Positions 3,246 through 19,535 of a stretch of DNA of 22,438 nt are shown piece by piece. How positions within the stretch are numbered: position 1 is the first letter of the stretch; every line of letters starts with the position of its first letter. The stretch is from a virus, in IMG/VR virus record IMGVR_UViG_3300036791_000360, positions 1 through 22,438 of that record. The stretch is one strand, 5' to 3'. Both the position numbers and the translations under genes were made by a program. A model generated the notes under the pieces. The model was not told where the DNA came from. It did no database searches and saw only the letters and a list, made by a program, of their open reading frames with translations.

Positions 3246-3467
3246 ATGTCCTGGAAACCGGAAGTTTTTGTGGAAGGTAAATGGTCGCGCAACGCCTTGG
3301 TGTTCGCCACCAAAGAAGAGGCGGAAGCTAGCGCGTTCAACCTGTTCTCGCGTTGGATGCTGACCGAGGACCATCGGGCCGTCGAAGTAGATGAGCCCGT
3401 AAACTACCGCTGGCACGATGGCCGCTTGGTGCACATTGCGGAAGCGGCCGGGGAGGGCGAGGTATAG
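3246..3467 (+). CDS. Small hypothetical phage protein (73 aa)
   Basis: The frame is open from before 3186, but the ATG at 3246 is chosen for its ribosome-binding site (CGAAAGGAGCAAACA). The product is a compact protein beginning MSWKPEVFVEGKWSRNALVF, with a helix FATKEEAEASAFNLFSRWML and an acidic C-terminus (AEAAGEGEV). The pattern is typical of short phage proteins that take an evenly spread beta-alpha-beta form, but I recognise no named family. It ends the first gene run. About 230 bases without a gene follow. Confidence 0.65.
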   Translation: MSWKPEVFVEGKWSRNALVFATKEEAEASAFNLFSRWMLTEDHRAVEVDEPVNYRWHDGRLVHIAEAAGEGEV

Positions 3468-4704: not shown

Positions 4705-4803
4705 ATGCCAGTCTCAACCCAAACGGCCACCATCCTGGCGGGTCAATCGCTGTCCAACGCGGTAGATAAGGACCGCGTTTTCACGGTCTATGTGGTGACC
4801 TGA
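4705..4803 (+). CDS. Short ORF, possible remnant of a small virion protein (32 aa)
   Basis: The ATG at 4705 has only a weak ribosome-binding site (GGGGATACC). The peptide starts MPVSTQTATILAGQSLSNAV and then ends quickly (DKDRVFTVYVVT). The opening is like the N-terminus of small phage proteins that normally continue for about 80-100 residues with a beta-rich body, so this may be a truncated relic. It may also be a genuine microprotein or chance. A GACCG/CGGTC pairing (4771-4788) lies near its 3' end. Confidence 0.35.
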   Translation: MPVSTQTATILAGQSLSNAVDKDRVFTVYVVT

Positions 4804-4817
4804 AACCTGGGGACGAG

Positions 4818-5000
4818 ATGAAGCACCCTTCCCCTCCCGTCCGCCATGCTGCGAGCCGCAAGAACCGGCGCAAGGCCTTGCACTTCGCCAAGAACCTGCG
4901 CGACGAGATCGAGTTCTTACTGCGCATGCGCGTCAACCTGCTTTACTGCCAGGACCGGGTGGAGAAGCTGATCAACCGGCTTAGAGCCGAGAGGCACTGA
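4818..5000 (+). CDS. Small basic helical protein (60 aa)
   Basis: The ATG at 4818 is preceded by GGGGACGAG. The product is strongly basic: MKHPSPPVRHAASRKNRRKA, then a long helix (LHFAKNLRDEIEFLLRMRVN, LLYCQDRVEKLINRLRAERH) with heptad-like leucines. It could dimerise as a coiled coil. It ends 1 base before the endolysin start, so it is probably co-transcribed with the lysis genes. No family is recognised and a lysis role is not implied by the sequence itself. Confidence 0.6.
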   Translation: MKHPSPPVRHAASRKNRRKALHFAKNLRDEIEFLLRMRVNLLYCQDRVEKLINRLRAERH

Positions 5001-5001
5001 C

Positions 5002-5649
5002 ATGGCGTGGCGTGTGGCAAAATCTCTCGAAACCCTACGTCAGCAAATCAACAATTCGCGGCCGACGCGCAGCCGGGCCTCCGACGGCACCATCGGCGAC
5101 GCCGCCCACGCCTCGCGCAAGTCCGATCACAATCCTTGGGTCAAGGACGGCACCATGGGGGTGGTCACCGCCTGGGACGTGACCCACGATCCCAAGGGCG
5201 GCGTCGATGCCCACGCGCTCGCCGAGCACATGCGCAACACCCGCGACCAGCGCATCAAGTACATCATCAGCAATCGCCGCATCTGCAGCAGCGATACATG
5301 GCAATGGCGCACCTACTCCGGCTCCAATCCGCACAGCGCCCACGTCCACATCAGCGTCAAGGACAGCAAGGGCCACTACGACGACGCCCGCGTCTGGAAC
5401 ATCGGGACGGCATTCGGCGGTCCGGAGCCGGAGACCGAGGACGACCCGATGAAGGCGGCGCTGCCGACCATTCGGCGCGGCGCGCGCGGCGAGAGTGTCA
5501 AAGTCCTGCAGAACCAGCTAAAAATCCCCGTCGATGGCGCCTTTGGGCCGGCGACCGAGGCGGCCGTAAAGGAGTTTCAGACCGGCAAGGGTCTGGAGGC
5601 GGACGGCATCGTCGGTTTCTATACGTGGCAGGCTTTACTCGGAGAGTGA
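5002..5649 (+). CDS. Endolysin: M15-like peptidase plus peptidoglycan-binding domain (215 aa)
   Basis: The ATG at 5002 follows GAGG at 4991-4994. Residues about 25-120 carry candidate zinc ligands in the order expected of M15-type (D,D-/L,D-) peptidases. These are SDH (H43), a VTAWDVTHD segment (D59) and a C-terminal HSAHVHIS (H114/H116). Residues about 150-215 form a PG_binding_1-like repeat (IRRGARGESVKVLQNQLKIP, then DGAFGPATEAAVKEFQ, ending GIVGFYTWQALLGE). There is no signal peptide, so release would need a holin. The two genes directly downstream encode single-span membrane proteins, which fits a lysis cassette. The exact bond cut and the subfamily are inferred. The fold assignment rests on motif order rather than overall similarity. 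A second M15-like domain lies in the protein at 20011. Confidence 0.8.
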   Translation: MAWRVAKSLETLRQQINNSRPTRSRASDGTIGDAAHASRKSDHNPWVKDGTMGVVTAWDVTHDPKGGVDAHALAEHMRNTRDQRIKYIISNRRICSSDTWQWRTYSGSNPHSAHVHISVKDSKGHYDDARVWNIGTAFGGPEPETEDDPMKAALPTIRRGARGESVKVLQNQLKIPVDGAFGPATEAAVKEFQTGKGLEADGIVGFYTWQALLGE

Positions 5650-5651
5650 CC

Positions 5652-5876
5652 ATGGGTCCCTCGGAAGAAGTCGGCAAGGTCGCTGTCGGAATCATCGAGG
5701 CGCTGAAAAATCAGCCGGCGGTGCTGGCGCTGATCGTCTTGAATGTCTTGTTTATTTGCTTTGTTTATTTCGGGATGCGGGAACAGCGCGCTGAAGCGGG
5801 GCTGCAGACGCGCACGCTGCTGGCCCACATCGACAAAGGGCAGGAATTGCTGTCGAAATGTGTGGTGCCGCCATGA
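5652..5876 (+). CDS. Single-span membrane protein, candidate holin or spanin (74 aa)
   Basis: The start at 5652 is fixed by GGAGAG 5 bases upstream and lies 2 bases after the endolysin stop. The N-terminus is polar (MGPSEEVGKVAVGIIEALKN). One transmembrane segment covers about residues 22-41 (PAVLALIVLNVLFICFVYFG). A charged helical tail of about 30 residues follows, with a Cys near the end. Length and topology suit a small holin or an inner-membrane spanin, and the lysis context supports either. No sequence family is recognised. Its stop overlaps the next ATG (ATGA). Confidence 0.7.
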   Translation: MGPSEEVGKVAVGIIEALKNQPAVLALIVLNVLFICFVYFGMREQRAEAGLQTRTLLAHIDKGQELLSKCVVPP

Positions 5877-6206: not shown

Positions 6207-7901
6207 ATGAACATCTTTGATCTTTTCAAATTTCGCGACCCGTCGTGGATGTTCATGTCCTACGACGGCAGCGGCGGCGGCGACGGCGGGAACGACAGCT
6301 ACGGTGGCGGTGGTGGTGGCGGCTACGGCGGTAACTACGGCGGGAGTTACGGCGGCTACGGCGGCAACACCTACAGCGGCTACGCTGGCAACTACGGAGG
6401 CAACTACGGCATCAGCTACGGTGGCGCCGACGGCACCGACCCGGGTACCGACCCGACCGATCCGACCGGCGGTAATCAGAGCCCATCCAGCTTGGCTGAC
6501 GGGAGCGTGCAGGGTCAGGAGCAGGCCGCCCGCGAGGCTTTTGCTTCCGCTGCCGGCGGCGGTGGAGTCAGCACCGATCTGAGCGATCCGACCGGCGGCA
6601 ATCAAAGCCCGACAGCTGACCCTAACGCCAACGATCCCAGCAATGAATTCGGTGGCGGCATCACTGATCCCGGCGCTGGCCAGCAGAATACGACCACCGA
6701 AGGCGGAAACTTTCCCGGCGCCGATACTGGCGGTGCGGAGCAGACTGGCGATCCTAATGCCAACGATCCCAGCAACGAATTCGGTGGCGGCGTGCAGGCT
6801 GGTGGCCAGCAGGATGCCCGCGCCACCGACGGCGGAAACTTTCCCGGCGCCGATACCGGCGGCGCGGAGCAGACCGCTCCAAGTGCGCAGGGCCAGAGCG
6901 GCCAGGGCATGTCGTTCGGAGATTATCTCCGGGCCGCCCTCGGCGGTGCGTTCAGCACACCAGCTGCGGCCGGAGAGTTGCCGACCGAAGGAATGCCCAA
7001 CCCTAACTTCATGCAGGGCTACAACGTGACCGGCCTACCGGCTGGCATGAAGGATCAAGGCCAATTCCCGAACGCGGCCAACAACTACAACTTGACCGGC
7101 CTACAGGCAGGCATGGGCCAGGGACCGTTCGTCAGCGGACCATTCCAGGACGGTCCGCCCGTTATGCCGGGCGGTCAATCTCTGACCGGAACCAGCCCGG
7201 CGCTGACCGGGCAAGCGCCGGGCTTAACCCCGCAGCAGGCGGCCGATGCCTTCGGCAATCCACCGGTAGTGAATCCTGGCGACACCATCATCGGACCGCA
7301 AAATCCAGTCAATCCACAGGTCGCAGACAATGTTCCGCTTCCAACCGCGGACCCTCGGCAGCAGGTCGCGGACAATGTTCCGCTTCCAATCCGAGACCCG
7401 CGGGCGGGGATAGGAGACGCCTCGCAAGATCAGTCGCAATTCCCCTATGGGCCCATAGGCGCGCCAAGCCAGGGGCAGCAAGGGCAGCAGCGGACGCAAG
7501 TCGCGTCACTGAATGACCCATTCCGGATCGGAACGTCCCAACCGCTTGGGCCAAATGACCCCCTGCCAGAAGGAGGTACGTGGTCGAACCCCATCACCCC
7601 CCGAGGGTCCTACAGCACTCTTTCCGACATCGCTACCGGTGGATACGCCCAGAACCAAGGTTCGTGGATTTCCAGTCTGGCGCAGCAGCAGGCGATGCAA
7701 CAGCCGGCAATGCAACAGCCGGCGGCGCCAGTGGCGGCGCCACAGCCGGCACCCGCTCCGCCACCGGGCGGATACGGGCCAGTGCCCGACACTGGCGGCT
7801 ACGTCAGCAGTGACTACGGGCCGGTGATCTTTCCCAACACACCCCCGGCGCCCGCATCGGACTACAGCAATAACCTCTTCGACCTGGGTGCCGCTCCGTG
7901 A
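6207..7901 (+). CDS. Gly/Pro/Asn-rich repetitive protein, probable virion component (564 aa)
   Basis: An ATG at 6189 is in frame, but 6207 has GAAAGG 10 bases upstream and gives MNIFDLFKFRDPSWMFMSYD. Residues about 25-75 are almost all Gly, Tyr, Asn and Ser. Then come two DPTGGNQSP motifs and a 43-44 residue tandem duplication (DPNANDPSNEFGGG to GGNFPGADTGGAEQT). Paired YNVTGLPAGM/YNLTGLQAGM and a 15-residue duplication (QVADNVPLPTADPRQ) follow. The C-terminal part is Pro/Gln-rich. It has no recognisable catalytic domain. Low complexity suggests an unfolded or fibrous linker-type structural protein. The DPTGGNQSP and DQSQFP words recur in the proteins at 20011 and 21603, which tie it to the ejection side of the particle. 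Its stop overlaps the terminase GTG. Confidence 0.7.
   Translation: MNIFDLFKFRDPSWMFMSYDGSGGGDGGNDSYGGGGGGGYGGNYGGSYGGYGGNTYSGYAGNYGGNYGISYGGADGTDPGTDPTDPTGGNQSPSSLADGSVQGQEQAAREAFASAAGGGGVSTDLSDPTGGNQSPTADPNANDPSNEFGGGITDPGAGQQNTTTEGGNFPGADTGGAEQTGDPNANDPSNEFGGGVQAGGQQDARATDGGNFPGADTGGAEQTAPSAQGQSGQGMSFGDYLRAALGGAFSTPAAAGELPTEGMPNPNFMQGYNVTGLPAGMKDQGQFPNAANNYNLTGLQAGMGQGPFVSGPFQDGPPVMPGGQSLTGTSPALTGQAPGLTPQQAADAFGNPPVVNPGDTIIGPQNPVNPQVADNVPLPTADPRQQVADNVPLPIRDPRAGIGDASQDQSQFPYGPIGAPSQGQQGQQRTQVASLNDPFRIGTSQPLGPNDPLPEGGTWSNPITPRGSYSTLSDIATGGYAQNQGSWISSLAQQQAMQQPAMQQPAAPVAAPQPAPAPPPGGYGPVPDTGGYVSSDYGPVIFPNTPPAPASDYSNNLFDLGAAP
6618..6878 (+). repeat. Tandem 132/129-bp in-frame duplication
   Basis: Copy 1 runs 6618-6749 and copy 2 runs 6750-6878 with one codon fewer. 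Both encode DPNANDPSNEFGGG at the start and GGNFPGADTGGAEQT at the end. The middle third has diverged. Confidence 0.8.
7317..7406 (+). repeat. Tandem 45-bp in-frame duplication
   Basis: The units at 7317-7361 and 7362-7406 encode QVADNVPLPTADPRQ and QVADNVPLPIRDPRA inside the Gly-rich protein. Confidence 0.8.
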
Positions 7902-9694
7902 GCACCATCCGCCAGGGCATCTACGATCTACTCGGCGCTGTCGAGATCGATACCAAAGAAAGCGGCCGAGGCCACGTCGACCCGTGGCTGTCGCAGCGCA
8001 TGATCATCGACGCCATCGCCAAGGGGCTATCAGAAGGCGTGCATGAATTTGTTATACTGAAATCTCGGCAGATGGCGGCTACGACTGTTTGCTCCGTCAT
8101 CGAACTTTTCTGGGCACTCGCCAACCCCGGTGTGCAGGGAGCCATCATTGCCGATCGAACAGACAACCTCGAGCGCCTTCGCAGGATTTTTGCGTCGCTG
8201 CTTGAAACGCTTCCGCCTGAGTGGCGATCGCCGGACCACCGGCTCGTACAAAACAACCGAAATGGACTGGCCTTCGCTAATCGTAGTGTTATCGATCTAC
8301 TTGCTGCTGGGAGTAATCCTGATCTTGGTGCTTCCCGCGCATTGAACATGATGCACGCCACCGAGTGCGCGCAATGGCGCAGCTTGGCCGGCGTGGAATC
8401 ACTCAAGGCATCGCTGGCGAGGCTCAATCCAAACAGACTGTATGTGTGGGAGTCGATCGCCAACGGCTTCAACTGGTACTACAACTTTTGCCAGCAGGCC
8501 AAAGAGGACCGCCACATGCGGTTCATCTTCATCGGCTTCTGGGCCAACCCCACCTACACCATCCCCAAGAAAGACCCCGACTACAAGATTTACTGGGACG
8601 GGCACCTGACCACGGACGAGATCAACCGGGCCAAATACGTCAAGCAACAATATGGCTACGTGGTGAAGCCGGAGCAGATTGCTTGGTGGCGGCGCGAGTC
8701 CGAGTTCCGCGCCGAGGAATACATGATGCGGCATTTCCCCTGGCACGAACGGGAATGCTTCATCGCGTCCGGATCCGGATTCTTCCCGGCCGCCCGCACG
8801 CTCGAGATCGCCGAGGCGCTCAATCCCGGCCCGCCGATGAAGGCCTACAAATACACGTTCGACGAACAATTTCTGGCGAGCCGAATCGAGCAGGTGTCAG
8901 ACCCCGAGGAGGCGAACCTGCGGGTCTGGGAGCCGCCCGAGGAAAAGGCCATCTACGCCATCGGCATCGATCCATCCGGCGGCGGTGGCGGCGAAGCCAA
9001 CGATCACGCCGTCGAAGTGTTCCGCTGCTACTCCGATCGCATCGTGCAGGTCGCCGAATTCCAATCAAACAGGCCGCTGACGTATCAACTAGCCTGGGTG
9101 CTCGCCCACCTCGCCGGTGCCTATCGCGACCATATGGCCAACCTGGAGGTGACCGGTATCGGAGCCGCGGTGTTGCCCGAGGTGCGCAACCTGCGCCAGC
9201 TGGCCGAGCGTGGCATTCTGCAGGCGGAGCCAAACAGCGACCCCATCTTGTCGATGATCGGACAGGTGCGCTGGTTCCTGTATAAGCGAGCCGACTCCAT
9301 GAGCGGAGTGGGCAACATTATCAACTGGAAAACCAACGCCGACAACAAACGGCAGATATTCAGCGAGGTGCGTGATAGCTTGATGCTGCGCCGCCTCGAG
9401 ATCAGATCGATCCGACTGATCCAGCAGATGCAGGCGATTGTCGAGGACGAAACCGGCTGGCTGGGGGCCGGCGAGGACACCGGAGCCAACGACGACCTTG
9501 TCTCGGCCCTCGTCCTGGCGCATCACGTCTGGGTCGAAATGCAGCGTCCCGGCTTGGTGGCGCGCGACTACACCTGGGACTCGGTCAAGGGGGAGAGGCC
9601 GCCGCAGAACCCCGGCACCATTTTGTCTTTTGCCTTCAGCCAACATCTAAAGAAAGTCAATGTGAAAGCCACTTCGCGAATTGATAGGTTCTGA
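7898..9694 (+). CDS. terL: Terminase large subunit (598 aa)
   Basis: This is the ATPase-nuclease motor that translocates DNA into the procapsid and cuts it. The GTG at 7898 overlaps the upstream TGA. A deviant Walker A lies at about residues 54-63 (LKSRQMAATT). The motif usually ends with Gly before its small residue, and here that Gly is Ala. The Walker B region is ALNMMHATECAQW with the catalytic Glu at 156, close to the HxSExAxW form seen in many phage terminases. The nuclease domain shows GIDPSGGGGGEANDH (D358), LEVTG (E417) and GANDDLVSAL (D532/D533), the expected three acidic sites. Length is normal for the family. No small terminase subunit is recognisable next to it. Confidence 0.93.
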   Translation: MSTIRQGIYDLLGAVEIDTKESGRGHVDPWLSQRMIIDAIAKGLSEGVHEFVILKSRQMAATTVCSVIELFWALANPGVQGAIIADRTDNLERLRRIFASLLETLPPEWRSPDHRLVQNNRNGLAFANRSVIDLLAAGSNPDLGASRALNMMHATECAQWRSLAGVESLKASLARLNPNRLYVWESIANGFNWYYNFCQQAKEDRHMRFIFIGFWANPTYTIPKKDPDYKIYWDGHLTTDEINRAKYVKQQYGYVVKPEQIAWWRRESEFRAEEYMMRHFPWHERECFIASGSGFFPAARTLEIAEALNPGPPMKAYKYTFDEQFLASRIEQVSDPEEANLRVWEPPEEKAIYAIGIDPSGGGGGEANDHAVEVFRCYSDRIVQVAEFQSNRPLTYQLAWVLAHLAGAYRDHMANLEVTGIGAAVLPEVRNLRQLAERGILQAEPNSDPILSMIGQVRWFLYKRADSMSGVGNIINWKTNADNKRQIFSEVRDSLMLRRLEIRSIRLIQQMQAIVEDETGWLGAGEDTGANDDLVSALVLAHHVWVEMQRPGLVARDYTWDSVKGERPPQNPGTILSFAFSQHLKKVNVKATSRIDRF

Positions 9695-10143: not shown

Positions 10144-11850
10144 ATGCTCAAGCTGCCGAAGGACGCCGAAACGCTTGGCCCGTGGGCGCAGGAAATCACC
10201 GACGAGATGCTGACCTCGGCGGACGAGCGCGCCATGGTCATCACCCGCGCCTCGCAATACTACTATCAGGGCTGCTACGACAGCCGCGCGGCGATCTACA
10301 ACAAGTGCAAGCCGTTCATCGACAAGCTGTCCGGCTTCCTGATGCAGCCGACCGATATCCGGTTTTCCATCATCTACGATTCGACCGAGCCCGAGGACGT
10401 GCTGCAGCGCGCGCAGGTGGCCGGCGAGAAGCTGACCGCCGATTACCGGCAGACCGACTCTGATATCAAATTCGCGGAAGCCGTCACCTGGGCCCTGATC
10501 AACGGATGTCAGATCATCAAGCACACCCCCGCCAAGGATGGATTCCGCATCGCTCCCGTGCATCCACAGCACTTTGGAGTTCTAAGCGAAACCACCCTCG
10601 CGCTCGACGATCAGGAGGCCTTCGTTCACGTCTCGTTTCCGACTGTGTCGCAGCTGCGATCGATGCTCGACGAAGGCGACTATCCCAACCCCGAGGAGAT
10701 CATCGCCCAGGTCCTGCAGGCCAACAAAGAGGAAAAATCCGACGAGGAGCCGACCTACTTTCACCAGATGATGGTGGGCGGCATGCAGCCGCTGGGCGAT
10801 CCTAACGACACTCCGAGCGCCGCCGGCATCGTGTCGGTGTTCCCCACTCCGACCCCGTGGCGGCCGACCAAGCGCATCTGGCAAACGGTGAGGTTCTGTG
10901 AAATCTGGATCAGGGACGCCGACCGCGGCGGCGACTACACGACGCTGCAGATGGTCTATCCAGACATCCTGATCGAGGGGAAACACACCCGCCGCAATCT
11001 GTCGAAAATCCCCGGACGCCAGCCGTTCGTGAAGGTCCAATCAGCGCCGACGCCGGGATACTTCTGGGGCCGGTCGCTGCTCGCCGACGTCCAGATGCTG
11101 CAAGACGTGCTGAACAAGCGCATGCGCGACCTCAAGGTCATGTGGGACCGCAACGCGAACGCCCCGCAAGTTTTCTCCGGCTTCACCAGCGTCACCGAGG
11201 AGCAGTATTTCAAGATCATCTCCGAGGGCGGCTTCATCAACGACCCCAACCCGAATGCAAAGGCGCAGAAGCTGACCGAGCCGCCCCCGCAGGGATACAT
11301 GGAAGAGCTCCAGTTCCTCTTTCAGCTGTTCGACGAGTCCTCCGGGTTCTCCCCGGTCATGTCCGGCCAGGGCGAGCCGGGCGTGCGCGCCGGCATCCAC
11401 GCCCAGACGCTGGTGCGGACCTCGAGCCCGCGGCTCATCGACCAAGCCTGCCGCATCGAACGGCAATTGGCCGAAAGCGGCTACCTGTCGCTGCGCCTGA
11501 TGCAGGCCCAGGACCCCAGCATCTACACCACCGACCAGGGCACCGAGTTCACGCTCGAGCAGCTGCCAGGGGACTTCCAGGTCGCGGTCGACTCGCATTC
11601 GGCCTCGCCGGCCTTCGCCGAGGACAACCGCCAAGTGGCGATCGCGCTCGCCCGCGCCGGTGCCATCGACTCCGAGGACCTGATCCGGATGTTGCATCCA
11701 CCAGGATCAGAACTGCTGCTGGCGCGGCTGCGAGACCGTCAGAAAGCGCAGAAAGATCAGGCCGAAAAGGATCACAAAGAGCAGCTGCTGCGGGACGTGC
11801 TGCACATGCCCCAGCACAAGCAGAGTGGACAGGGCGGCAAAAAAAGTTAA
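10144..11850 (+). CDS. Portal protein, podovirus type (568 aa)
   Basis: This is the dodecameric ring at one capsid vertex through which DNA enters and leaves. Evidence is length, position after terminase and before scaffold and capsid, and typical portal segments. These are an N-terminal helical region with YYYQGCYDS, the KPFIDKLSGFLMQPTDIRFS segment, a stem-like LLADVQMLQDVLNKRMRDLK, and QLFDESSGFSPVMSGQGEPG with VRAGIHAQTLVRTSSPRLID. The last is reminiscent of portal crown and channel helices of podoviruses. The C-terminal tail is basic and Gln-rich (KQSGQGGKKS). It starts 3 bases after its upstream neighbour's stop codon begins, so translation is probably coupled. Confidence 0.85.
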   Translation: MLKLPKDAETLGPWAQEITDEMLTSADERAMVITRASQYYYQGCYDSRAAIYNKCKPFIDKLSGFLMQPTDIRFSIIYDSTEPEDVLQRAQVAGEKLTADYRQTDSDIKFAEAVTWALINGCQIIKHTPAKDGFRIAPVHPQHFGVLSETTLALDDQEAFVHVSFPTVSQLRSMLDEGDYPNPEEIIAQVLQANKEEKSDEEPTYFHQMMVGGMQPLGDPNDTPSAAGIVSVFPTPTPWRPTKRIWQTVRFCEIWIRDADRGGDYTTLQMVYPDILIEGKHTRRNLSKIPGRQPFVKVQSAPTPGYFWGRSLLADVQMLQDVLNKRMRDLKVMWDRNANAPQVFSGFTSVTEEQYFKIISEGGFINDPNPNAKAQKLTEPPPQGYMEELQFLFQLFDESSGFSPVMSGQGEPGVRAGIHAQTLVRTSSPRLIDQACRIERQLAESGYLSLRLMQAQDPSIYTTDQGTEFTLEQLPGDFQVAVDSHSASPAFAEDNRQVAIALARAGAIDSEDLIRMLHPPGSELLLARLRDRQKAQKDQAEKDHKEQLLRDVLHMPQHKQSGQGGKKS

Positions 11851-13126: not shown

Positions 13127-14164
13127 ATGGCGTTGATAGGAACTGGACTCGTCCCGGCAGGTCCGATCGGCCTCGAACTAACGGCGACAGTCCGCCGGGT
13201 GTTTGCAGAATGCGTTGTTGTTCTGCTCTACAAGCAGAATCCTCTGCTCAGTCTGCTGCTCAGAAATGCGATCCGTGCATCCGGCGGTATAGCACCATAC
13301 ACCCAGCCAGTGCAGACAGGCCGTTACGTCCAATCCACATGGATGGGACCAGCTGGAGCGTTTAGCCTGCCGCCCGATGTCGCCGCCACGCTCAACGCCG
13401 AGTTCAACATGTGCGCGCTGGCGACCCCTGTCACCAGCTTCGGCCTCGAACAACTCGTGACGCAGGATGCGATCGCGGTGTGCTCAAGGTTGATGCTCAA
13501 GATGAACGACATGAAGAACAGCGCGCTGGAGTCGCTTGCGGCGGCGCTGTTCGGATCGAACTTCACCGGTCCGGCGCCGGGCACGACCAACGTGCAGCAG
13601 ATGTTCGGGCTCAACGATGCCTATGGCAACATCGCGCTATCGCCGATCTACGGCGGGCTTGACCGAAACGTCTATCCCAGCTGGCAGGGCACCGTTGTCC
13701 CGGCCGCGGGCGCCATCCTCACCCGGCAGGCCTTCATCCAGAAGTTCCTGCAGGTCGCCAAGGCGTCCGGCGGCGAGGCCCCGGACTTCGCGGTGCTGTC
13801 GGTCGAAGACTGGTCAACGCTGATGACCGATTTCATGAGCCTGGAGCGGTACAACAACGATCCGAGCTCGCGTTGGGGCAAGGACGATCCGGTGAACTCC
13901 GGATTCCGCGGTCTGCTGCTGGGCGACACCCCGATCTTCTTCGACCTGAACTGCCCGGTCGGCACCGGCTACATTTTCAACTCGAAATATCTGACCACGG
14001 TGATCCACGAGGATTGCAACTTCGCCTGGACCGGCTGGTACTCGACCATCCCGCAAGGCCAGATTTCCAGCGTCGGCTTGACCTTGACCGCGCTCAATCT
14101 GGTTTGCTCCAAGCCGCCGACCGGCGCCATCCTGCAGGGAATTACTGGCGGCGCCCCATGGTAA
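13127..14164 (+). CDS. Major capsid protein, HK97-fold predicted (345 aa)
   Basis: The ATG has the strongest ribosome-binding site in the window (AGGAGG at 13114-13119, 7-base spacing), as expected of the most abundant virion protein. The order scaffold, this gene, then small head genes and adaptor is the classical one. Internal segments fit a coat protein: NAIRASGGIAPYTQPVQTGR, SALESLAAALFGSNFTGPAP, the FAVLSVEDWSTLMTDFMSLE helix, and VNSGFRGLLLGDTPIFFDLN. The HK97 fold is inferred from context, not from a signature motif. The stop is overlapped by the next start, read in another frame. Confidence 0.85.
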   Translation: MALIGTGLVPAGPIGLELTATVRRVFAECVVVLLYKQNPLLSLLLRNAIRASGGIAPYTQPVQTGRYVQSTWMGPAGAFSLPPDVAATLNAEFNMCALATPVTSFGLEQLVTQDAIAVCSRLMLKMNDMKNSALESLAAALFGSNFTGPAPGTTNVQQMFGLNDAYGNIALSPIYGGLDRNVYPSWQGTVVPAAGAILTRQAFIQKFLQVAKASGGEAPDFAVLSVEDWSTLMTDFMSLERYNNDPSSRWGKDDPVNSGFRGLLLGDTPIFFDLNCPVGTGYIFNSKYLTTVIHEDCNFAWTGWYSTIPQGQISSVGLTLTALNLVCSKPPTGAILQGITGGAPW

Positions 14165-15759: not shown

Positions 15760-15780
15760 AATTTACCTGGGTGGTAAATT
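15760..15780 (+). promoter_or_regulatory. Perfect hairpin before the large tail gene
   Basis: AATTTACC (15760-15767) pairs with GGTAAATT (15773-15780) around TGGGT. It is A+T rich, unlike its surroundings. An in-frame GTG at 15771 lies in its loop, which makes that codon an unlikely start. Confidence 0.4.
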
Positions 15781-15800
15781 TCTCTTGGGACAGAAACCCG

Positions 15801-17441
15801 ATGCCCATTCAGTCGGCCAACCCGCCCGACATCACCACCGTCGACCAGTGGAAGGGGCTCAATCAGCAGTCTCTACGTGCCACCATCGACGACCAGGAAC
15901 TTTGGTGGAACGAAAATTTATACGCAGTAGGGCCCGGCGATCTTCGCTCATGCTGGGGCCGCGGCGGGGCCATCTACACGGCGCCTGCTGGCGTCACGAT
16001 CCTGCGCACCTTCTTCGGCTACTACGGATATCCCACGGCGTTCCTGACCCAGCCGCCACCGGGCCGCATGGGCTGGATGTTCCTCTCGGATGGGACCGTC
16101 GATGAGGTTGACGTCGACACCGGAGCAGTGACCCACGTTGGCGCCATCTGGCAACCCGTCTCCCCGTACTGGTTCGCCGACGCGGTGGTCTGGCGCCCGC
16201 GGTTCTTCGGCAACACACCGGGGCAGCGCGGCGGTGTCCTGTTCGGCTCTCCCAAGGGCATGTACGCCTGGGACGGCACCACGGTCTCCGCGCCCGGTCA
16301 GCCTGCCCCCGATTGGCTGACCTCCGCCAACGAACAGCCGGTGGTTTCCACCGTCATGCCGACAGGCCTGCCCGGGATCCTGGCCATGGAGGTCTATCAG
16401 AGCCGGGTGTGGGTCATGGGCGAGACGGTGATGTCGTTCTCGGCCGCATCGAACGGCTGCGACTTCTCGGTGGCCGGCGGCGGCGGATCGTTCGGCTATT
16501 CGGGCAACACCCTGACGACCATCTATCGCGACCTGCGCGCCTCGGCCTCCTACCTGTTCGTATTCGGAGATTCCTCGACCGACATGGTCAACAACGTCAT
16601 AACTTTCGGCGACGGCACCACGATCCAGTTCACCACCCAATTCAACTACCTGAATGTCGACCCGATGGTGGGTCACGCCTTCCCGCGCAAGGTCGGGCAC
16701 TCCGGTCGCTACTCGGTGCTGGCCAGCGGCGCGCGCGCGTACCCCTCGAGCGCAAACAGTCGCAACTCCGGCGGCGGACTCTGGTTGCTGCTGGGAGGGG
16801 AGGCGCAGGAGATCGGACAGAAGCTCACTAATCTTTGGATGACGCTCGACACCAGCCAGTTCTATCCGACCTTCGCCACCGTCACCATGTTCGGGCGCCG
16901 CATCGTGCTGCTGAACGGAATGTTCGTCGACCCGTGGGGCGTCAAGCGTTCCCTGATGCTGGGCTACGACGGCACCACCTGGACAATCATGTCGCAGGGG
17001 CTGAACCTGACCAACATAGGATATATCGAGCAGGACTCAATCTGCGATGTCTACGGCACCGACGGAAACTCGCTCTATCATTTGTTTGATCATCCCGATC
17101 CGACGCTCAAGAAAAAGCTGTCGACCAAGATGCTCAAGAACAAGGGTCCGCTCACGCACCTATCAATCAACAGCTGGAAACGGCTGTTCCTCGAGCTCTC
17201 CGACAAGTCGGGGCAAGGCGTCTCCATCATCGGCACGGTGACGACCGCGGGCGGCGGCGTTCCCAACGGCACCGAGGATGTTGCCTTTCAGCTGGCGGCG
17301 GGCACCGCCTCCGGCTTCGAAGCGCAGCCGCTGAACGGACAGGGCATCATGGCGGGTGTCGATCTTGAATCGTTCTCGCCCGACTTCATCATCGAGCGCA
17401 TCCACCTAGCAGGTGATTCACGCAGCCTGTTCGGCGCCTGA
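15801..17441 (+). CDS. Large beta-rich tail or DNA-stabilisation protein (546 aa)
   Basis: The frame extends to a GTG at 15771, but that codon lies within a hairpin. ATG at 15801 gives the natural-looking MPIQSANPPDITTVDQWKGL. The protein is rich in Gly, Thr, Trp and Phe, with repeated short strands such as GRMGWMFLSDGTVDEVDVDT, GGVLFGSPKGMYAWDGTTVS, MEVYQSRVWVMGETVMSFSA and RRIVLLNGMFVDPWGVKRSL. This pattern suggests a beta-propeller. Size, fold type and position after the adaptor recall the P22 gp10-like packaged-DNA stabilisation/tail tube-closing proteins of podoviruses, but I cannot confirm homology. No catalytic motif is visible. Confidence 0.7.
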   Translation: MPIQSANPPDITTVDQWKGLNQQSLRATIDDQELWWNENLYAVGPGDLRSCWGRGGAIYTAPAGVTILRTFFGYYGYPTAFLTQPPPGRMGWMFLSDGTVDEVDVDTGAVTHVGAIWQPVSPYWFADAVVWRPRFFGNTPGQRGGVLFGSPKGMYAWDGTTVSAPGQPAPDWLTSANEQPVVSTVMPTGLPGILAMEVYQSRVWVMGETVMSFSAASNGCDFSVAGGGGSFGYSGNTLTTIYRDLRASASYLFVFGDSSTDMVNNVITFGDGTTIQFTTQFNYLNVDPMVGHAFPRKVGHSGRYSVLASGARAYPSSANSRNSGGGLWLLLGGEAQEIGQKLTNLWMTLDTSQFYPTFATVTMFGRRIVLLNGMFVDPWGVKRSLMLGYDGTTWTIMSQGLNLTNIGYIEQDSICDVYGTDGNSLYHLFDHPDPTLKKKLSTKMLKNKGPLTHLSINSWKRLFLELSDKSGQGVSIIGTVTTAGGGVPNGTEDVAFQLAAGTASGFEAQPLNGQGIMAGVDLESFSPDFIIERIHLAGDSRSLFGA

Positions 17442-17496: not shown

Positions 17497-17528
17497 AATC
17501 AAGAATGCACTTAAAAATGGAGGCCATC

Positions 17529-17570
17529 ATGGCTCGCAGAGGTCGAAGAGGCCGTCGGCGTCGGAGGTAG
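17529..17570 (+). CDS. Arginine-rich microprotein 1 (13 aa)
   Basis: The whole product is MARRGRRGRRRRR: ten Arg and two Gly in 13 residues. GGAGG (17519-17523) lies 5 bases before the ATG. The last two sense codons, CGG AGG, contain the GGAGG that serves the next ORF. Length, opening residues and charge are matched by the following ORF, which supports duplication rather than chance. Protamine-like DNA or RNA binding is the simplest inference, comparable in kind to the short basic J protein of microviruses. No homology is claimed. Expression is unproven. Confidence 0.55.
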   Translation: MARRGRRGRRRRR

Positions 17571-17574
17571 CACC

Positions 17575-17616
17575 GTGGCTCGCCGCCGAAGATATCGCAG
17601 ATATCGACGGAGATAA
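17575..17616 (+). CDS. Arginine-rich microprotein 2 (13 aa)
   Basis: A GTG start at 17575 has GGAGG (17563-17567) 7 bases upstream. The product MARRRRYRRYRRR has the same length and the same MARR opening as its neighbour, with Tyr in place of Gly spacers. The Tyr-Arg pattern could add base stacking to charge binding. The CGG AGA at its end makes the GGAG used by the next gene. It is in the same frame as the next two ORFs, divided only by stop codons. Confidence 0.5.
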   Translation: MARRRRYRRYRRR

Positions 17617-17619
17617 CCG

Positions 17620-17772
17620 ATGCCGCGCCAGTATGTCCGACCGGCCAATCTGGCGCGGGCGGTTAAGGTCAAGGATTGGAGAAAGCCGAACGAGGTAAAT
17701 TGGCGTCCACGGCTTCACTCCTATCGGATGACCCACACAGGCAATCGGATGCGACGAACGCGGAGGCTGTGA
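17620..17772 (+). CDS. Basic microprotein 3 (50 aa)
   Basis: The ATG at 17620 has GGAG (17609-17612) 7 bases upstream. The product is strongly basic with few acidic residues: MPRQYVRPANLARAVKVKDW, a middle RKPNEVNWRPRLHSYRMTHT, and the tail GNRMRRTRRL. It has Trp, Tyr and His spaced along it and looks more like a small folded or nucleic-acid-draping protein than the pure Arg peptides before it. The closing CGG AGG forms a Shine-Dalgarno sequence for the TTG directly after its stop. Family unknown. By size and charge it could be a DNA-condensing virion component. Confidence 0.6.
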   Translation: MPRQYVRPANLARAVKVKDWRKPNEVNWRPRLHSYRMTHTGNRMRRTRRL

Positions 17773-17817
17773 TTGGCAAAGCGCGCAGGAGCGCGGAGTG
17801 ATCGCAGAGGACGATGA
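17773..17817 (+). CDS. Arginine-rich microprotein 4 (14 aa)
   Basis: A TTG at 17773 directly follows the upstream TGA, with GGAGG (17762-17766) 6 bases before it. The product would be MAKRAGARSDRRGR, opening like the other members (MA, then two basic residues). Its stop (TGA, 17815-17817) overlaps the ATG of the next ORF. A competing GTG at 17769 overlaps the previous stop and would yield only 10 residues, so start use here is uncertain. Confidence 0.35.
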   Translation: MAKRAGARSDRRGR

Positions 17818-18262
17818 TGGCGAGACGCAAGAGGCGTTCCCATGGCGCCCGGACTCTGCCCAAAATCGCGCACGCCGTGCGCGGACGGAGGGGACGAAGA
17901 CACTGACCGAATTCGACCTTCACAAAGCCGTCGCGCAGTACCTTGATTGGTGCCTCGTGCCGCCAGCGTTCTACACCACATTTCCGGCCGGCTGGGACAA
18001 AATGAGCAAGACCCGCGCCGGTATGCTGTACGCAGCCGGGCTGAAAGCCGGCATTCCCGACATCCTCATCTTCTACAACGCCCGCACGATTGGAATCGAG
18101 TTAAAGGCCGGCAAGGGGAAGTTGTCGAAGATTCAGGTAAATACGATAGAGCAACTCACCGAGGCAGGTGTGTTTGTACAAGTTTGCAGGAGTGTGGAAG
18201 AAGTTGAGGAAGCATTGACAAGTCTACAACTCCCCTTGCGCGGAACAGTAAGGGCAGCATGA
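17798..18262 (+). CDS. VRR-NUC domain nuclease (154 aa)
   Basis: GTG at 17798 is the only usable start before the domain, with AGGAG (17787-17791) 6 bases upstream. An acidic, then basic, N-terminal extension (residues 1-35) overlaps two Arg-rich ORFs in another frame. From residue 37 the VRR-NUC pattern appears: LTEFDLHKAVAQYLDWC, MSKTRAGMLYAAGLKAGIPD (D88), then IGIELKAGKGKLSKIQ (E101, K103, Q113). Those residues match the metal-binding PD-(D/E)xK site of the family, which resolves branched or flapped DNA. In phages, stand-alone VRR-NUC proteins are frequent and usually sit with replication genes, so a place in the tail module is notable. It may process DNA before packaging. Its stop overlaps the next ATG. 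Confidence 0.8.
   Translation: MIAEDDDGETQEAFPWRPDSAQNRARRARTEGTKTLTEFDLHKAVAQYLDWCLVPPAFYTTFPAGWDKMSKTRAGMLYAAGLKAGIPDILIFYNARTIGIELKAGKGKLSKIQVNTIEQLTEAGVFVQVCRSVEEVEEALTSLQLPLRGTVRAA
17814..17906 (+). CDS. Arginine-rich microprotein 5, overlapping the nuclease gene (30 aa)
   Basis: The ATG at 17814 is followed at once by a second ATG, which better fits AGAGGA (17806-17811). The product starts MMARRKRRSHGARTLPKIAH and ends AVRGRRGRRH, a basic peptide with the MARR opening of the cassette. It lies in a different frame from the nuclease that starts at 17798, so this stretch would be read twice. The overlap could mean that one frame is merely a by-product of the other. The repeated MARR and good ribosome-binding site speak for it. 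Confidence 0.45.
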   Translation: MMARRKRRSHGARTLPKIAHAVRGRRGRRH

Positions 18263-18748: not shown

Positions 18749-19140
18749 GCGCGGCCGACTTGCTGACCTATCCCAGTGATCCGCGCGCGCAAAGCTGGTG
18801 GGCGTTCGCTCATGCACAGAACCACAAGCCATGGATTGGCGTCTGGGAGACGGAGCGCGCCAGCTACTCGACCATTCCGTACCTGATCGGAAATTACTGG
18901 AAGGATCACGACAATCCAGCTTGGCGCTTGAATCACCAGTTCGCGCATTGGGACACCGTCTATCAGCCATCGCAGCCGGTCGGACCGTTCACGGCGCCGA
19001 TCGGACAAGACCTGCTGCACAGCGGTCCAACCGATCCGGTCCATGGAAAATTCTGGGTCTTCGCCAATCATACGGAGCATAAGCTGGTGGAAGACAACCA
19101 AGCCACGAACGGCTGGCCGTTCTATTATCCGTTCGGATGA
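18745..19140 (+). CDS. Hypothetical tail-region protein rich in Trp and His (131 aa)
   Basis: A GTG start at 18745 overlaps the upstream TGA (GTGA). The product is compact and aromatic: SDPRAQSWWAFAHAQNHKPW, IGVWETERASYSTIPYLIGN, YWKDHDNPAWRLNHQFAHWD, then VFANHTEHKLVEDNQATNGW near the C-terminus. It has no cysteines and no signal peptide. The pattern looks like a small folded virion protein, but no family is recognised. Its stop overlaps the following ATG (ATGA), so it is coupled to the GNAT-like gene. Confidence 0.6.
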   Translation: MSAADLLTYPSDPRAQSWWAFAHAQNHKPWIGVWETERASYSTIPYLIGNYWKDHDNPAWRLNHQFAHWDTVYQPSQPVGPFTAPIGQDLLHSGPTDPVHGKFWVFANHTEHKLVEDNQATNGWPFYYPFG

Positions 19141-19535
19141 AGCCGCGCCTGCTGGTCGAATCCGATCTTCCATGGATGATCGAACTGGCGCAGCGAAGAT
19201 TCCCCGCGTTCAACCCGGTTGCAGCGCGAAGCTGGTTCGTCAACGAGGTGCTGACGAACGACCGCTATTTCGCCATGCGCACCGAGGATGCGTTCCTGAT
19301 CGCGGTCCTGAGCTCCATGCCCTGGACGTCCAGAACCGAGGCCATCGTGCTCATCCTGATCACGGCCGATGACAAGCCCTGGCAGGTTGTGCGATTGCTC
19401 CGGGAGTCGATAAACTGGGCGCGGCAACGGAAAGCGGCGCATTGGCATTTCTGGATGGACGATGCCGATGCCGGGGCGCTCGCCCGTCGGGTCGGCGCCC
19501 GCGAGAACACAAGCAGATATCGGATGGACCTCTGA
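19137..19535 (+). CDS. GNAT-like protein in ejection-protein position (132 aa)
   Basis: The opening RLLVESDLPWMIELAQRRFP, the middle MRTEDAFLIAVLSSMPWTSR, EAIVLILITADDKPWQVVRL and the C-terminal WMDDADAGALARRVGARENT follow the strand-helix order of GNAT acetyltransferases. The usual acetyl-CoA loop (R/Q-x-x-G-x-G/A) is not clear, so it may be a non-catalytic GNAT fold. Podoviruses of T7 and P60 type carry GNAT-like proteins beside their internal virion proteins (T7 gp13 is an example, as I recall), which agrees with the neighbours here. The start overlaps the upstream stop. Confidence 0.65.
   Translation: MKPRLLVESDLPWMIELAQRRFPAFNPVAARSWFVNEVLTNDRYFAMRTEDAFLIAVLSSMPWTSRTEAIVLILITADDKPWQVVRLLRESINWARQRKAAHWHFWMDDADAGALARRVGARENTSRYRMDL

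Follow-up and report, generated by a model that had tools for sequence, protein, structure and literature searches.

The phage genome studied here carries a run of short open reading frames (ORFs) for strongly basic peptides behind a large tail gene, and the question is whether such ORFs are genuine genes and, if so, what their products could do in a tailed phage. The window, i.e. the stretch of DNA analyzed, is a whole virus record of 22438 bases. According to the original prediction it holds five consecutive ORFs, each preceded by a Shine-Dalgarno (SD) sequence. All five are present exactly at the coordinates compiled in Table 1, and the sequence confirms an SD motif in front of each. In several cases the final arginine codons of one ORF contain the SD of the next. 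Arginine accounts for 9 of the 13 residues (69%) of ORF1 and for the same share of ORF2, and both peptides are free of serine and threonine. When the stretch was shuffled 5000 times with its dinucleotide composition kept, five tiling basic ORFs with SD sequences never occurred; no shuffle had more than three.

Table 1. Features of the cassette and of neighboring genes in the window.
Feature	Position	Strand	Description
Endolysin	5002–5649		12 kb from the cassette
Endolysin and membrane protein, together	5002–5876		distant from the cassette
Portal protein	10144–11850	+	PHROG 332 and SU10 portal; 32% identical to the MW202753 portal
Major capsid protein	13127–14164	+	PHROG 9953, E = 1.9e-18
Tail nozzle protein (predicted fold)	15771–17441	+	556 codons; probable start 15801 (residue 11, where the relatives begin)
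SD of ORF1	17519–17523	+	GGAGG, 5 nt upstream of the ATG
ORF1 (family B)	17529–17570	+	ATG start, 13 aa, MARRGRRGRRRRR, net charge +9
SD of ORF2	17563–17568	+	GGAGGT, within the end of ORF1
ORF2 (family C)	17575–17616	+	GTG start, 13 aa, MARRRRYRRYRRR, net charge +9
SD of ORF3	17609–17612	+	GGAG
ORF3 (family D)	17620–17772	+	ATG start, 50 aa, Arg-rich tail ..RMRRTRRL
SD of ORF4	17762–17766	+	GGAGG
ORF4 (truncated family E remnant)	17773–17817	+	TTG start, 14 aa, MAKRAGARSDRRGR
SD of ORF5		+	GAGG/AGGA, from sequence
ORF5 (possible family F remnant)	17814–17906	+	ATG start, 30 aa, MMARRKRRSHGARTLPKIAHAVRGRRGRRH; alternative start 17817 gives 29 aa
VRR-NUC nuclease	17903–18262 (or from 17798)	+	Pfam PF08774, E = 1.9e-7
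GNAT-type acetyltransferase	19137–19535		within the structural module; weak PHROG 1249 match

The cassette is flanked by the nozzle gene, which ends at 17441, and the VRR-NUC gene. An AlphaFold2 model of the upstream gene product (31 sequences, pLDDT 79.8) found its best matches in the nozzle proteins of Pa223, SU10, VP1, P22 (gp10) and T7 (gp12), with Z-scores of 19 to 25. For the Pa223 tail, Foldseek gave an E-value of 3.6e-16 and VIA a Z-score of 24.7 over 440 residues; the Z-score for P22 gp10 was 20.8. The assignment as a podoviral tail nozzle with the P22 gp10/T7 gp12 fold is well supported at the level of the predicted structure. With the preceding gene so identified, the cassette sits right behind the nozzle in the structural region, in keeping with its predicted placement in the tail module. 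Genes for the terminase, the portal and the major head protein are also present in the window. The major capsid protein is 36% identical to that of the uncultured phage record MW202753 and 26% identical to that of Myxococcus phage Mx8.

The VRR-NUC gene has no ATG. Its start is either the GTG at 17798, which overlaps ORF4 and ORF5, or the non-standard CTG at 17903, which overlaps the stop codon of ORF5 as CTGA. In the related locus L011 the VRR-NUC homologue starts directly after the last cassette ORF. A small nuclease follows the cassette in many relatives, with types that differ (VRR-NUC in some, as in the window); L012 (8658–9044) and L017 (8165–8623) have a different gene at this place, with resolvase-like sequence as judged by eye. 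In L005 a lysozyme-like gene on the minus strand (about 7700–8160) is inserted between the nozzle gene and an intact cassette. The gene named acyltransferase or GNAT in Mx8 and in Stenotrophomonas phage BUCT555 holds a place similar to that of the GNAT gene of the window.

A scan of IMG/VR with the nozzle yielded 5 and then 16 loci, and a set of small Arg-rich ORFs lies behind the nozzle in every locus with sequence there. We examined 41 IMG/VR contigs with this nozzle, which are partly non-independent since some are near-copies. Downstream of the nozzle gene each locus carries 2 to 7 small basic ORFs, the net charges of which add up to between +22 and +97. Such ORFs are 26-fold more frequent behind the nozzle than in the rest of the same contigs, and 61-fold with stricter limits. 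The nozzle search of genome-bin contigs gave no match.

The peptides were assigned to families A to G. Family A peptides comprise about 24 residues with the core LRMTRRARRIRAR. Those of family E have about 45–70 residues (54–63 in many relatives) and the motif LGPRSRVDPAG, family F is characterized by ..SPRPGGRTGPVR..RR, and family G (AAARRNLRKAR) is found behind the nuclease. In families D, E and F, conserved motifs with aromatic residues or proline lie next to the Arg tail. The fullest set of families occurs in L021; the window has lost A and G. To locate family A in all of IMG/VR we used a DNA pattern of its motif in which the Arg codons were left free. The motif was found in 35 loci, 33 of which are in contigs with the same nozzle, behind it; in the remaining two, L027 and L035, it follows directly behind the portal gene. 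In the family E scan of IMG/VR, 63 of 63 loci have a nozzle match ending 226–1438 nt upstream. Families A and E are locked to a place in the structural module beside the nozzle or the portal.

Substitution patterns were used to judge whether the peptides are made. Between the window and L001, ORF3 differs by six synonymous and one non-synonymous changes, compared with 0 and 7 in each of the other frames. For ORF1 the comparison with L005 gave five synonymous and one non-synonymous changes; the ORF1 peptide is identical in L001 and L005, and L002 has a 12-aa form. ORF2 is kept in L001, L002 and L005, with a pN/pS of 0.2 against L002. Other pairs from families A, D and E have pN/pS values of 0.04–0.49. 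Across 34 distinct sequences of the family A core, 4048 synonymous and 692 non-synonymous codon differences were counted, in a set that was picked by peptide pattern and therefore leans synonymous; the pN/pS pairs of families A, D and E were not picked in this way. The preponderance of synonymous changes argues that the peptides, ORF5 excepted, are translated from genes under selection for the peptide sequence.

The last two ORFs of the window differ from the others. An alignment with L001, L005 and L002 shows that roughly 120 nt have been lost from the interior of ORF4 in the window. The full-length counterpart has 54–59 residues and is intact in these three close relatives (55 residues in L001, the nozzle of which is 96% identical to that of the window). 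This alignment rules out ORF4 as an independent gene and identifies it as the remnant of a family E gene. ORF5 is open in the window, L001 and L005, with a pN/pS of 0.5–1.9. It shares DNA with the VRR-NUC ORF when the latter is extended upstream in frame, and that frame is equally conserved. ORF5 lacks a clear coding constraint and is uncertain as a gene; its resemblance to the end of family F (..GARTGPVR..RR) is weak. The view of the cassette as a series of genuine genes, for which synonymous bias of short Arg-rich ORFs in relatives had been proposed as support, holds for ORFs 1–3. The full-length form of ORF4 shows this bias as well; the truncated ORF4 of the window and ORF5 drop out.

Among named phages, two uncultured records from Manatee Spring, MW202753 and MW202825, have the nearest capsid and portal. 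Both have two unannotated 13-aa Lys/Arg ORFs with SD sequences behind the portal gene (MRKAYKKTRKTRR and MARAKRKGRKARK), and the strand opposite to these is annotated with hypothetical ORFs (4740–5038 in MW202753 and 25683–25943 in MW202825). Gene callers do skip such peptides, as had been anticipated. These phages share homologous portal, capsid, adaptor and nozzle proteins with the window. In contrast to the window, their basic pair, a Lys/Arg version, is located behind the portal and not the nozzle, and none of the longer D, E or F peptides were seen.

When IMG/VR was scanned with an alignment of the portal (A4), at least 586 relatives were detected; the portal of this distant sister group is about 30% identical to that of the window. 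We kept 80 of them, 72 with enough sequence. At least one Lys/Arg ORF, mostly of 10–15 codons, is found behind the portal in 71 of the 72 loci, and at least two in 56. The GC content of the loci ranges from 38 to 64%, and at 38–50% GC the same feature is built with lysine. In total, 141 basic ORFs were counted in the 28.8 kb behind the portal and 14 in 544 kb elsewhere on the contigs (133 and 1 with stricter limits), an enrichment of 190- to 2500-fold overall. Substitutions in the peptides fall mainly on the third position (53/58/201 and 48/82/210). CGT and CGC make up 82% of the Arg codons in the peptides compared with 60% in the portal gene, 77 of 90 peptides end with TAA and 86 of 90 start with ATG; the codon usage gives signs of high expression. 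An independent portal set from genome bins gave partial agreement: seven of its loci have room for such peptides, and among these four carry one or two near the portal and a fifth carries one 600 nt away. This search found nine loci in metagenome bins. They are likely mis-binned phage contigs, so no host was assigned from them.

L027 and L035 link the nozzle and portal groups, having a family A core identical to that of the nozzle group together with portals about 29% identical to that of the window. Taken with the Lys/Arg pairs, which also follow the portal, these exceptions place the peptides in the structural module, beside the DNA channel, in all cases.

Between the two peptides of the portal group (67–84 nt; alignment A5 with L088, L109, L009 and others) we observed a conserved, pseudoknot-like RNA with an AGGG/CCCT stem and a loop, GGCTNNCT, pairing with a downstream AGNNNRCC. 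It covaries, with 91.7% of cells paired and 25 both-side changes as against 6.1 in shuffles. Rfam at the gathering threshold gave no match for this RNA in five relatives. In L109 and its relatives, a G-rich/C-rich hairpin followed by TTGACA, terminator- and promoter-like by eye, is located just 3' of the second peptide.

The short peptides consist of about 60% Arg and Lys, with lysine sharing the role of arginine in genomes of lower GC content, and 7–9% hydrophobic residues. Those of 10–15 residues are built almost only from Arg, Lys, Gly, Ala, Ser and Thr, and the portal group, with 71 distinct short peptides, has one acidic residue among them all. AlphaFold2 did not predict a fold for family D (pLDDT 58). 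Searches with Pfam, PHROGs and NCBIfam profiles, which are weak for short biased sequences, gave no hit that passed the cut-off with families A, D, E, F and G. An equally weak search of PDB sequences gave no match for profiles A2 and A3. With tblastn, families A and E had no match among named phages even at an E-value of 10, although the low-complexity filter may hide matches. The papers found in a literature search do not report such a cassette in tailed phages. The N-terminus of histone H3 is similar to MARLKQTRRARR, which we take to be a coincidence.

Based on these observations we propose, with a probability of about 50%, that the products are unstructured basic virion-assembly peptides which would bind packaged or portal-channel DNA and act in a manner similar to J/VP8 or protamines. 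Place, charge, the missing fold in family D and the expression signs of the portal group make DNA binding the most economical reading. The ORFs would be expressed as late genes, and the peptides would be made in quantity beside the portal and nozzle proteins. Their Arg and Lys side chains could bind DNA without sequence preference, either packaged in the head or held in the portal-nozzle channel, and the bound peptides would neutralize the DNA or keep it in place. The longer peptides of families D, E and F, with a conserved non-basic part and an Arg tail, may attach to a protein of the head or tail in the manner of J/VP8. Expression level, presence in the virion and DNA binding of the peptides are what we infer here; the conservation of the genes, their fixed place and the selection at the peptide level are observed. 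If a T = 7 head held one set, with a charge of +51 to +60, per coat copy, roughly a quarter of the charge on a 41-kb genome would be balanced, an estimate that speaks to plausibility only.

Several findings count against this reading. In a survey, tailed phages, which package by motor, formed a group separate from the viruses that depend on charged protein domains (PMC7096446), so that a protamine-like cassette is unexpected there. In addition, the Arg codons of the window are unlike those of highly expressed genes: within the nozzle group, CGY makes up 53% of Arg codons in the basic peptides compared with 62% in the nozzle genes. Mx8 and BUCT555, the nearest cultured relatives by capsid (coat 25–27% identical), share the gene order of terminase, portal, coat, tail and a GNAT/acyltransferase-type gene. 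In both, a gene of roughly 530 codons in the nozzle position abuts the acyltransferase gene and there is no basic mini-ORF cassette, which indicates that the cassette is generally dispensable for this particle type.

The original prediction compared the peptides to protamines and to the J peptide of microviruses; the role in genome condensation or packaging that it suggested would be plausible. J/VP8 is rich in Arg and Lys and located inside the capsid, where a hydrophobic pocket of the coat protein takes up its C-terminus (PMC11281519). Like J/VP8 of phiX174 and Spiroplasma virus 4, the cassette encodes tiny Arg/Lys-rich peptides among structural genes, and genome binding would be plausible for them as well. 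However, J/VP8 is a single peptide, and its phage has no tail, a T = 1 capsid with a jelly-roll coat and a single-stranded DNA (ssDNA) genome, whereas the cassette provides 2–7 peptides to a tailed phage with terminase, portal, tailed-phage head protein and nozzle. In place of a hydrophobic C-terminus for docking, ORF1, ORF2 and family A end in Arg, Lys or His; only ORF3 ends in Leu. With protamines and baculovirus P6.9 the peptides share an Arg content above about half (ORF1 and ORF2), Arg runs with a few Tyr or Gly, the missing predicted fold (modeled for D) and the proposed charge neutralization. P6.9 is regulated via Ser/Thr phosphorylation (PMC12159748); ORF1 and ORF2 of the window offer no such sites, host and virus type differ, and no sequence family link to P6.9 or protamines was found. 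Since the cassette lacks defining features of both J/VP8 and P6.9, we class it with neither: the resemblance is one in kind, and a common descent is spoken against by the missing family match and the tailed-phage setting.

A less probable alternative, which we still take seriously, is that the peptides act in the infected cell on host or phage nucleic acid or on the ribosome, e.g. in nucleoid compaction, host shut-off, as RNA chaperone or as mimic of a ribosomal protein. Size, charge and missing fold would fit RNA or ribosome binding equally well, and the near-invariance of the 13-residue family A core between phages with portals only 29% identical suggests a specific partner beyond mere charge. 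Against it stands the place of the peptides, which in all relatives is next to portal or nozzle within the structural module. Pfam, PHROGs, NCBIfam and PDB sequences also gave no match to a ribosomal family or any other, weak as these searches are for short biased sequences. A mimic of the bS22/COX24-like type, considered as a candidate, found no support in Pfam or PDB sequences and survives only as part of this alternative.

The constant position directly behind the portal or nozzle gene, together with the aromatic and proline motifs next to the Arg tail in families D, E and F, would also suit a role in assembly or as minor components of the portal-tail channel, with contacts to portal, adaptor or nozzle and only incidental DNA binding. 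The narrow composition of the 10–15-residue peptides, however, appears too poor for specific protein contacts alone, and we regard this role as unlikely. Still less probable is control of translation or transcription, in which leader or spacer ORFs, or the RNA between them, would regulate the neighboring genes. The covarying RNA of the portal group and the coupling of the window ORFs, each SD lying within the end of the previous ORF, are in line with it. On the other hand, conservation acts at the amino acid level (third-position bias), the Arg codons of the portal group are common and not rare, stalling ones, and 2–7 different peptides per locus exceed the need of a leader.

Attack on membranes, also part of the original prediction, is disfavored. 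Phage-encoded cationic lysis peptides are known, such as gp28 of coliphage phiKT, and poly-Arg peptides are able to cross or disturb membranes. Unlike those lysis peptides, the short peptides are nearly without hydrophobic residues and hence not amphipathic, the endolysin and membrane protein genes are far from the cassette, and in L005 the cassette is unchanged by the lysozyme-like gene inserted before it on the other strand; we consider such a role very improbable. Chance Arg-rich frames in GC-rich DNA, of which the window holds a few others (at 3436, 10175 and 12464), are ruled out for ORFs 1–3 by the shuffles, the enrichment behind nozzle and portal and the synonymous bias, and argued against by the Lys version at low GC, which leaves this explanation a negligible chance overall and ORF5 as the only ORF to which it could still apply.

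The genes of the cassette are conserved and for the most part unannotated. Genes of 10–15 codons fall below the usual size limits of gene finders, yet at least 100 phage contigs share these in conserved form, and they provide a clean case of ultrashort phage genes that are real, widespread, kept in place and selected for their peptide sequence. They add several new peptide families. Protamine-like peptides are used on DNA by ssDNA phages and by many eukaryotic DNA viruses. To our knowledge, no multi-peptide protamine-like system has been described in any tailed phage. It is a tentative proposal, at less than even odds, that two large uncultured groups of motor-packaging tailed phages possess a dedicated system of this kind, in which 2–7 ultrashort basic peptides would be made in bulk, taken into the particle and used to neutralize or seal the packaged double-stranded DNA. 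The finding raises the question of whether some motor-packaging tailed phages, too, may place protamine-like peptides on their DNA.
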